DNA of 64,000 bases. It comes from Haloplanus sp. GDY1 (GTDB taxonomy: Archaea; Halobacteriota; Halobacteria; Halobacteriales; Haloferacaceae). The position numbers and the translations under genes were made by a program. This document shows, in pieces, positions 50,895-53,874 of this stretch (position 1 is the first letter of the stretch; the number at the start of each line of letters is the position of its first letter). The notes under the pieces are model-generated. The model worked only from the letters and a program-made list of their open reading frames with translations. It searched no databases and was not told the DNA's origin. The DNA lies in contig NZ_CP098514.1 in NCBI RefSeq assembly GCF_023703775.1, positions 2,329,998 to 2,393,997 of the forward strand. The letters are read 5' to 3'.

Positions 50895-51515
50895 TCAGCT
50901 CGATTCAGCTAACCGCCCGCGGAGGCGGTCGCCGTCCCCCGCCGGTTCGATCTCGAACCCCAGCGACTCGTAGAACGGCCGGACGCCGGGGTCGAACTCG
51001 GCGACGAGACGCTCCCGGCCCCTCGCGGCCGCCGACACCAGCGCGGTGCCGACGCCCCGGTCCCGCCACCGGCGGCGCGTCGCCACCGCGGTCACCCGGT
51101 CGCCGTCGCACACCAGCGCCCCCACCACTCGGTCCTCGACGGTCGCGACGAGCACCTCGTCGCTCCCGATCCGCTCTCGCACCGCCGCGGCGTCGGTTTC
51201 GAGCATCGCGCCGTCGAGCACCCGCACGACGTCGAGGCCCTCGTCGGCGGCGGCGCGGACCCGCACGCGGTCGTCGACGGCCGGCTTCCCGCCCCCGACG
51301 TCCGCCCCCGCGCCCCCCTTCACCAGTCGGAGGACCCGCACCTCGCGCTCGAAGTCGACCGGGCGATCCTCGGGGACGGGCGCGTCGTCGACGAGGACGG
51401 CCGCCTCGTGGGGGCTGAACCCCCGCTCCCTGAGCAGGTCGCCGTACGTGGCGTCGGCGTCGAGGTCCACCGTCCGGGTCCCCTCGCCGACCACCTCGAC
51501 ACGAACCGTCGGCAT
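50895..51515 (-). CDS. Ubiquitin-like SAMP2-type domain fused to a GNAT acetyltransferase
   Basis: 206 residues. Residues 1-68 are a beta-grasp domain very like SAMP2 (VRVEVVGEGTRTVDLDADATYGDLL, FSPHEAAVLVDDAPVPEDRP) ending in VLRLVKGG at 61-68. In the free modifier the terminal Gly-Gly is used for attachment; here it runs on through GAGADVGGGKP. Residues 85-206 are a GNAT domain with acetyl-CoA loop RRRWRDRGVGTALVSAAAR and tail FYESLGFEIEPAG. The fusion is intact with no frameshift. It may release a SAMP by cleavage or use the beta-grasp as a binding module. Confidence 0.85.
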   Translation of the reverse strand: MPTVRVEVVGEGTRTVDLDADATYGDLLRERGFSPHEAAVLVDDAPVPEDRPVDFEREVRVLRLVKGGAGADVGGGKPAVDDRVRVRAAADEGLDVVRVLDGAMLETDAAAVRERIGSDEVLVATVEDRVVGALVCDGDRVTAVATRRRWRDRGVGTALVSAAARGRERLVAEFDPGVRPFYESLGFEIEPAGDGDRLRGRLAESS

Positions 51516-51597: not shown

Positions 51598-53874
51598 ATG
51601 AGTGAGGCCGAGGGGTCGTCGGCGGGACGGGAGATCTGGATCGAGAAGTACCGCCCGGAGACCCTCGACGACGTGAAGGGACAGGACGACATCGTCGACC
51701 GCCTGTCGAGCTACATCGACCGCGACGACCTGCCGCACCTTTTATTTTCAGGCCCAGCTGGCGTGGGAAAAACCACCTGCGCCACGGCCATCGCCCGCGA
51801 GGTGTACGGCGACGACTGGCGGGGCAACTTCCTCGAACTCAACGCCTCGGACCAGCGCGGCATCGACGTGGTGCGCGACCGGATCAAGAACTTCGCGCGC
51901 TCCAGTTTCGGGGGGTTCGACTACCGGATCATCTTCCTCGACGAGGCCGACTCGTTGTGCGTGCCGCCGGGAACCGAGGTGGTTACGGGATATCCGTCGA
52001 GCCCCGAGGTAAAACCGATAGAGGAGGTGAACGAGGACGGTGAACCGATCCCGTCCGTCGATTTCGAGACGAACGAGATCCAGTCCGACGAGGGGCGACT
52101 GGTTGATTCCGGCGTCGCGGACTTCTTCGAGGTCGAACTGGAGGACGGGCGGACGACCGTGGCGAGTCCGACACATCCGTTCTTCGTCGTCGACGAGGAC
52201 GGCCGACTCGTCGAAACGGAGCTACGGGATCTGTCGCCGGGGGACGAGATCGCGGATTTCAGCGACGAAATCGGCGTGTCACGGTGTGACATCTGTGACG
52301 CCTGGACCGGGGGACGGTTCTGTTCCGTCGACTGCAAGAACGAGGGACACAGCCGCGAGATGCGTGGTGAGAAGAATCCGATGTACGGGACCACGTGGTC
52401 GGCGGAGCGGCGAGGAAAGATCGTCGAGAAACTCTCTGACGGACGACTTGCGGGCGATAACAACCCGAACTACGGGGGAGAATTCCACGGGATCCATGTC
52501 TGGGAGATGGACGAGGAGACGGTGGAGCGGGTCCGCGAAACGATCAGCGAGATGCGTTCCGGCACTCCGTGGGAGGAGTGGGTCGTCGACGCCGATCCCG
52601 AGCGGGTCAAAGAGGACATCGGGGCTGCCTCGGCCGAGTGGTGGGCAGATCTCGACGACGACGAACGAGCCGATATCATCGAAAGAAGCGTCGAGAACTG
52701 CGATTATCCGGTCTGTGATATCAGCGGCGACGACAACCCGATGCGTGACCCCGAGGTCGCACGGAAGGTCTCGGATGCACTGCAAGGGCACGAGCCCACA
52801 GGTGGCAACGTCAGACACAGCGATGAACTCGGCCATCTCGTCCGATCCGACTGGGAGTACGAAGTCGGGATGGCCCTACAGGACGCCGGCATCGAATACG
52901 AGTACGAGCCCTCGTTCGAACTCTCCGAATCGGTGTATCATCCTGACTTCTTGATCGACGATACGGTCATTGAGGTCAAGGGAGTCGCCGAACTGTGGGG
53001 ACAGACCGAGAAGGTAGAGGAGTTTCTGGACACCTACGGCGACGAATATACGTTCGTCGTCGTCGGGGACGATGACCTCCCACATCACGAACACTACGAC
53101 CGAGCGGACTTCGAGCCTGGCGTTCTCTCGGACGGTGGTCTCCGAGCGGTTCGCACCGTGGGCATCGAGCGCATCGACTACAGCCACCGTGGCAAGGCCT
53201 ACAACATCAGCATGGAGGGAACGCCCAACTTCATGCTCGGCAACGGGGTTCTGACCCACAATACCGACGACGCCCAGTCGGCCCTCCGCCGAACCATGGA
53301 GCAGTTCGCGGACAACACCCGCTTCATCCTCTCGTGTAACTACTCCAGCCGGATCATCGACCCCATCCAGTCGCGGTGTGCCGTCTTCCGGTTCTCGCCC
53401 CTGCCCGACGAGGCCATCGCGGCGCAGGCGCGGGAGGTCGCCGACGCGGAGGGTATCGAGATGACCGACGCCGGCCTCGACGCCCTGGTCTACGCCGCGG
53501 GCGGCGACATGCGCCGCGCGATCAACACGCTGCAGGCCGCGGCGACGACGGGTGAGACGGTCGACGAGGAGGCGGTCTACACGGTCACCAGCACCGCCCG
53601 TCCCGAGGAGATCGAGTCGATGGTCGAGGCGGCCATCGAGGGGGACTTCCCCCGTGCCCGCTCGACGCTCGAAACCCTCCTGGTCGACGCGGGGATGGCC
53701 GGCGGCGACGTGATCGACCAGCTTCACCGCTCGGCGTGGGACTTCGACCTCGACGACCGCCGGACGGTCCAGTTGATGGAGCGGCTGGGCGAGGCCGACT
53801 ACCGGATCACCGAGGGCGCCAACGAGCGGGTGCAGTTGGAGGCGCTGCTGGCGTCGCTTGCGCTGGAGGAGTAG
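51598..53874 (+). CDS. rfcS: Replication factor C small subunit, interrupted by an intein
   Basis: 758-residue precursor for the clamp-loader small subunit that loads PCNA. Extein residues 1-120 carry [20 protein letters not shown], Walker [14 protein letters not shown], and Walker [11 protein letters not shown]. Extein continues at Thr556 as [39 protein letters not shown] (sensor 1 and SRC motif). Splicing would give a normal 323-residue RfcS. The intein sits right after the Walker B DEADSL, a known RFC insertion site. ATG at 51598, with in-frame upstream sequence being antisense of the GNAT fusion. Confidence 0.94.
51958..53262 (+). mobile_element. Intein in rfcS with a PD-(D/E)XK-type homing nuclease instead of LAGLIDADG
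   Basis: 435-residue intein. Splicing blocks: Cys1 in [13 protein letters not shown] (A), [12 protein letters not shown] with the block B His, [16 protein letters not shown] (F) and NGVLTHN ending in His-Asn before Thr+1 (G). Between them no LAGLIDADG pair is seen. Instead there is a Cys4 knuckle ([17 protein letters not shown], residues 110-126), NUMOD3-like segments ([20 protein letters not shown] near 138; [18 protein letters not shown] near 259), and a nuclease signature [19 protein letters not shown] (Asp330), VIEVKG (Glu339, Lys341). DNA is lower in GC than the exteins, suggesting horizontal arrival. Confidence 0.85.

Follow-up and report, generated by a model that had tools for sequence, protein, structure and literature searches.

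The window, that is, the whole 64,000 nucleotide stretch of Haloplanus sp. GDY1 DNA which was analyzed, contains at positions 50895-51515 of the minus strand an open reading frame of 206 amino acids with an ATG start, in which a SAMP2 domain is followed by a GNAT domain within a single open frame. The features of this gene and of its divergent neighbor are as follows:

51312..51515, minus strand: SAMP2 (ThiS/Urm1-like beta-grasp modifier), residues 1-68, identified with PF21965, NF041919 and PDB 2l32/4hrs
51312..51317, minus strand: Gly67-Gly68, predicted JAMM1 cleavage site (after Gly68); invariant in 12/12 Haloplanus, supported by codon changes and pLDDT <50
51270..51311, minus strand: residues 69-82, a variable linker; most other species have a shorter one, and the alignment shows no alignable conservation
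50898..51269, minus strand: GNAT N-acetyltransferase, residues 83-206, identified with PF13508, PF13673, PF00583, Foldseek and invariant motif residues
51516..51597, no strand assigned: 82-nt intergenic region that separates the divergent fusion and rfcA genes, from the sequence and ORF positions; promoter inferred
51598..53874, plus strand: rfcA (replication factor C small subunit), intein-interrupted divergent neighbor, identified with Pfam

The intein of rfcA is inserted between the Walker B region (LDEADS) and TDDAQ and carries NUMOD3-like motifs. Judged by eye only, its stretch PDFL..VIEVKG resembles a PD-(D/E)XK or Vsr-like nuclease and not LAGLIDADG. rfcA has no part in the mechanism of the fusion.

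A first-pass annotation of this DNA had claimed that the first 68 residues of the protein are SAMP2-like and end in KGG, and that the chain continues into a GNAT domain; both claims were confirmed. Residues 3-65 matched the Pfam SAMP2 family PF21965 (E 2.8e-24, 85.7 bits with a cut-off of 27), residues 3-68 matched the NCBIfam SAMP2 family NF041919 (95.3 bits with a cut-off of 70), and the top PDB match of the fusion protein was Haloferax SAMP2. Taking a curated cut-off together with a full-length domain as the requirement for family membership, residues 1-68 qualify as SAMP2. Past the sequence ...VRVLRLVKGG, whose KGG ends at residue 68, the frame contains no stop before the GNAT domain, where residues 119-188 matched PF13508 (E 2.5e-9, 37.8 bits with a cut-off of 27) and both PF13673 and PF00583 also scored above cut-off. 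The acetyl-CoA motif R/Q-x-x-G-x-G/A is intact as R151-D-R-G154-V-G156, with R151, G154 and G156 invariant in an alignment of 12 Haloplanus species. The GNAT fold was also found by Foldseek, although its neighbors were generic (YjaB, NatC catalytic subunit, Ard1, EctA) and did not identify the substrate class of the GNAT.

The fusion was sought in 40 related genomes and then across the whole Haloplanus genus. The same open SAMP2-GNAT fusion was present in all 12 Haloplanus genomes examined, the other 11 being 65-81% identical to the one described here. Each of these 12 genomes encoded exactly one SAMP2 above the family cut-off and none encoded a second; a whole-genome search of the source genome, which is 99.5% complete, found no stand-alone SAMP2. 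The supposition that the fusion might be the only source of SAMP2 was thus borne out. Additional SAMP2 matches were all below cut-off (13 bits in the source genome, 20.3 bits in G001). The ThiS-family matches of the source genome were considered as candidates for a second SAMP2 and rejected, as those read were of the SAMP1 type, ending in GG-MR (G000:C1:2701085), GG-A (1851067) and GG (265529). Short tails after GG therefore also occur on SAMP1-family proteins (source-genome paralogues L114, L115 and L113).

As encoded, the Haloplanus SAMP2 does not have a free C-terminal Gly-Gly, since 138 more residues follow it. Activity of UbaA and of SAMPs requires a free C-terminal Gly (PMC4443979). The Gly-Gly of the Haloplanus SAMP2 is free for adenylation by UbaA only once the chain is cleaved, and cleavage has not been demonstrated. 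What the gene does have is the architecture of a linear ubiquitin-like (Ubl) precursor, namely an N-terminal Ubl with an internal Gly-Gly directly ahead of an unrelated passenger or tail.

Selection at the junction was analyzed in a codon alignment of the 12 Haloplanus fusions. While the whole SAMP2 domain had accumulated 153 synonymous and 140 nonsynonymous changes, the KGG codons had accumulated 10 synonymous and no nonsynonymous changes, and the two Gly codons alone 8 and none. Taking a neutral expectation of 2 nonsynonymous per 1 synonymous change, the chance of 8:0 at the Gly codons is about 1.5e-4. The fused genes of Halorussus gave the same picture at KGG (5 synonymous, 0 nonsynonymous). 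In contrast, the first residue after GG had undergone 5 nonsynonymous changes in Haloplanus and 2 in Halorussus, and the Haloplanus linker varied in both length and sequence. The AlphaFold model (mean pLDDT 90.7) shows two well-folded domains, and only at residues 67-74 did pLDDT fall below 50; the fold thus does not keep the GG in place. This is the pattern of a functional C-terminus with dispensable sequence behind it, and the Haloplanus fusion therefore satisfies a further expectation for a precursor, that the Gly-Gly be conserved by selection and the sequence after it not.

In most other haloarchaea SAMP2 ends in KGG-stop, and a separate gene close behind on the same strand encodes the same GNAT. 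Among 258 SAMP2 loci read (duplicates included), the GNAT start lay no more than 250 nt behind SAMP2 in 138 and no more than 1.2 kb behind in 203; in G018 just a stop and a start codon separate the two genes. The SAMP2-GNAT association was previously tabulated by Makarova and Koonin (PMC2948915, Table 1). As the two genes are close same-strand neighbors elsewhere, loss of the stop codon between neighbors of a conserved SAMP2-GNAT operon is the most likely origin of the fusion. In Halorussus and three other genera SAMP2 is fused to a different neighbor, an AhpC/TSA-redoxin (Pfam AhpC-TSA, E 3.3e-18), with KGG joined in frame to the redoxin (Halorussus loci L086, L087, L089, L096, L098, L024, L125, L148, L179 and L204; further loci L124, L268, L029 and L173). 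In Halorussus the GNAT gene comes after the SAMP2-redoxin fusion. A single origin for all fusions was rejected in favor of several on the basis of gene trees: fusions of Haloplanus, G035 and G131 were separate in the GNAT tree, which required three changes (at least two forced by well-supported branches), and the redoxin tree required four, at least two of them forced. Both trees were quick ones and L017 was on a long branch. On these sequence data the SAMP2-GNAT fusion arose more than once, appearing at least three times, and the exact number of origins remains unsure.

Many haloarchaeal SAMP2 proteins carry tails of 2-24 residues after GG. Of 201 distinct SAMP2 domains, 136 stopped at GG, 37 had a short tail and 28 a large fusion; because the sampling favored loci with long reading frames, these counts are not population frequencies. 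The GG was retained in all 201 domains and in every fusion, and none of 221 genomes classified was without it. The commonest first codon of the tails was TCG. Tails of 16-24 residues without a recognizable domain followed KGG at L032 (G025), L253 (G059), L246 (G278) and L271 (G381), and such tails may have arisen from simple loss of a stop codon. At L287 of the Halorussus relative G288, within the genus of the fused genes, SAMP2 reads KGG-AV-stop and the redoxin is a separate gene; this arrangement looks like a reversal, or fission, of the SAMP2-redoxin fusion.

Genes that would use and process such a SAMP2 were found. UbaA, the E1, was present in 12/12 Haloplanus genomes, the source genome included, and the source genome also encodes NcsA, with a zinc ribbon at its C-terminus. 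In Haloferax, wobble thiolation of tRNA-Lys(UUU) requires SAMP2, UbaA and NcsA (PMC4048286). The JAMM1 desampylase (NF041370) of the source genome is encoded at G000:C1:1923011-1923409 (190.9 bits, cut-off 130), and its MPN+ metal/catalytic motif E..HS/THx7SxxD is intact, as GFYHSHPESPARPSATD with an upstream Glu. JAMM1 was detected in 11 of the 12 Haloplanus genomes; the exception, G005, is a 79%-complete draft that has the fusion. A second JAMM family, JAMM2, also occurs in these genomes. On a small contig of the source genome (G000:C3:78740-83453; L120:241-4954) there is an apparent type II CBASS operon, with a 778-aa protein whose E1 and JAB domains were both found by HMM, and with CD-NTase-like and TIR-SAVED-like proteins recognized by eye.

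Of 391 haloarchaeal genomes, 96 lacked JAMM1 (NF041370), about a quarter, spread over several families, and this provided a natural experiment. Only genomes with a SAMP2 C-terminus that had been read were counted, and G005 was left out as incomplete. An extended SAMP2 was found in 70 of 174 genomes with JAMM1 (46 tails, 24 fusions) and in none of 47 without it (Fisher p 1.8e-9). The association persisted at genus level (27/58 with JAMM1, 0/19 without; p 6.8e-5) and when JAMM1 status was shuffled within families (genus level, p 6.7e-4). As the JAMM1-lacking genomes read belong to six families, several losses were sampled, and the preferential fetching of long-frame loci applied equally to both groups. 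Such an association is to be expected if JAMM1 matures the extended SAMP2 and its absence makes an extension lethal or costly. The requirement that a processing protease be encoded, and be associated with the precursor form, is thereby met, and this association is the strongest evidence for the precursor reading. It is nevertheless a correlation, and genera in one family are not fully independent.

HvJAMM1 has been demonstrated by mass spectrometry to cut a linear SAMP1-MoaE fusion exactly after Gly in vitro, and it also cuts this fusion in vivo in Haloferax in a GG-dependent manner (PMC4443979). Before HvJAMM1 cleaves it, the artificial SAMP1-MoaE fusion has no activity (PMC4443979), and it shows that a Ubl with its C-terminal Gly enclosed in a fusion cannot be thiocarboxylated before cleavage. 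Pyrococcus JAMM1 cuts at SAMP2 regardless of what is attached to it, as cited in PMC8832034.

We consider it highly likely that the Haloplanus protein is a linear Ubl precursor which JAMM1 cuts after Gly68, freeing SAMP2 and GNAT, although cleavage has not been demonstrated. All SAMP2 in Haloplanus would be made as the SAMP2-GNAT fusion, and a zinc protease of the HvJAMM1 type, acting in trans, would cut it after Gly68. The predicted product is a SAMP2 with a C-terminal Gly-Gly that could be adenylated by UbaA and would then serve tRNA thiolation with NcsA as well as protein SAMPylation; the same cut would yield an active GNAT enzyme. Maturation of the precursor by JAMM1 would be the reason why cells tolerate the fusion, as they do the short tails or the redoxin passenger in other haloarchaea. 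The architecture, the sole-copy status, the selection on KGG, the finding of the pathway genes and the link between extensions and JAMM1 are computed results. That the chain is cut in the cell, exactly which bond is broken, and that the GNAT functions once released, with acetyltransferase activity, are inferred. So are the tRNA thiolation role and the lysine conjugation of the Haloplanus SAMP2, for which the partner genes UbaA and NcsA are present. That JAMM1 is the cutting enzyme is likewise inferred from correlation and not from mechanism, given that JAMM2 is also present.

The first-pass annotation had offered two options for the fusion, either a precursor that a JAMM protease cuts or an enzyme with a built-in docking domain. 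If the chain were never cut and the SAMP2 part permanently brought the GNAT to UbaA, NcsA or JAMM1, the intact domain fold and the gene neighborhood of SAMP2 and GNAT, which suggests a functional link (also PMC2948915, Table 1), would be accounted for. The cell would, however, be left without free SAMP2 although UbaA and NcsA are retained, and permanent docking does not explain the invariance of a KGG that is disordered in the model, the joining of unrelated passengers at the identical point, or the absence of extensions where JAMM1 is absent. We regard docking as improbable; the sole-copy SAMP2, the pathway genes, the selection on GG, the disordered linker and the JAMM1 association together favor the cut precursor. 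A regulated variant of cleavage is harder to dismiss. Here the uncut fusion would be stored inactive, with SAMP2 blocked and the GNAT perhaps inhibited, until JAMM1 cuts it at times of stress and activates both. The inactivity of artificial SAMP1-MoaE before HvJAMM1 cleavage (PMC4443979) offers a precedent, and the redoxin passenger of other genera would suit a link to oxidative stress. There is no evidence of an uncut form accumulating, however, and the many SAMP2 proteins with short, domainless tails point to housekeeping maturation rather than to a switch; we judge such regulation unlikely, though it is not excluded.

The separate proteins might also be made without proteolysis, if translation at the junction involved recoding, termination or an internal start. 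In the source gene a run of six G crosses the KGG codons (AAG GGG GGC) and start codons for the GNAT are present downstream, but the G run is not conserved, with other species using GGC, GGT and GGA, the nearest +1-frame stop is 19-73 codons away and that in the other frame at least 74 codons, and no in-frame start codon of the linker is conserved. With no conserved signal at the junction, production by frameshifting or an internal start was rejected, and we give a translational route only a very slim chance. Even less credence can be given to an error of assembly or sequencing or to gene decay. The ancestral layout of two genes parted by a stop would be compatible with either, but both are refuted by the agreement of twelve independent genomes and by purifying selection on both domains.

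Cleavage of the precursor by JAMM1 may be of wider relevance. We lean towards the view that haloarchaeal SAMP2 is broadly of the precursor type, and that housekeeping maturation by JAMM1, probably of SAMP1 too, let lineages repeatedly graft on different enzymes as passengers co-produced at a 1:1 ratio, making a sole-copy SAMP2 dependent on JAMM1. The GNAT and AhpC/TSA-redoxin passengers are then possibly coupled functionally to SAMP2. The usual description has SAMPs produced in their final form and JAMM1 acting to deconjugate them. With the sole SAMP2 locked in a fusion genus-wide, and no extension in the JAMM1-lacking genomes surveyed, maturation is likely a JAMM1 duty. On this view Haloplanus, unlike Haloferax, is predicted to lose both SAMPylation and the wobble thiolation of tRNA when jamm1 is lost. 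The fusions also offer natural substrates for studies of JAMM specificity, and the identity of their passengers hints at which enzymes may take part in the SAMP2 pathway.

Eukaryotic ubiquitin is encoded only or partly as N-terminal fusions to ribosomal proteins, which are cut after Gly-Gly. If the reading proposed here is true, the Haloplanus fusion is an archaeal parallel of these; it differs in that the eukaryotic fusions are cut by cysteine-protease DUBs and carry ribosomal proteins as passengers, whereas Haloplanus has no source of SAMP2 other than its fusion. In Fubi-S30, too, an N-terminal Ubl is carried on an unrelated passenger and both are released after Gly-Gly (PMC10611586). The orthologous Haloferax volcanii SAMP2 (HVO_0202) has the same KGG terminus and an operon-type link to the GNAT (arCOG04721) but is a free protein of 66 residues with a stop right after GG. 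The Caldiarchaeum precursors CsUb (matured by CsRpn11) and CsSAMP (CsJAMM) also have residues after Gly-Gly and JAMM-family maturation (PMC6043591), and their extensions are comparable to the short haloarchaeal SAMP2 tails. Unlike the Haloplanus fusion, the CsUb extension is nine residues long without an enzyme, in a different archaeal lineage with a dedicated Rpn11. The thaumarchaeal Ubl-Cgi121 protein is similar as an archaeal Ubl fused to a tRNA-modification-related protein (PMC2948915), although both the Ubl and the passenger are different.

The Ubl-MoaE proteins (MoaD-MoaE, with the pairs Deinococcus DR2607/DRJAMM and artificial SAMP1-MoaE/HvJAMM1) share with the Haloplanus fusion an N-terminal beta-grasp Ubl, a Gly-Gly, an enzyme joined head to tail and a JAMM protease in the genome (PMC4443979, PMC8832034). 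Ubl-MoaE is cut exactly after Gly, a cut which for Haloplanus is inferred. In Ubl-MoaE the passenger MoaE is the direct partner of the Ubl, which is MoaD/SAMP1, whereas the Haloplanus Ubl is SAMP2, of the Urm1/ThiS branch, with a GNAT as passenger and a redoxin in other genera. Archaeal Ubl-MoaE fusions have been reported from Crenarchaeota only (PMC4443979). No report of natural SAMP2-GNAT or SAMP2-redoxin fusions was found in our literature search, whose coverage was incomplete, with most subscription journals missing. The precursor principle is already known; what appears to be new is the natural fusion of SAMP2 to enzymes and the dependence of such fusions on JAMM1.
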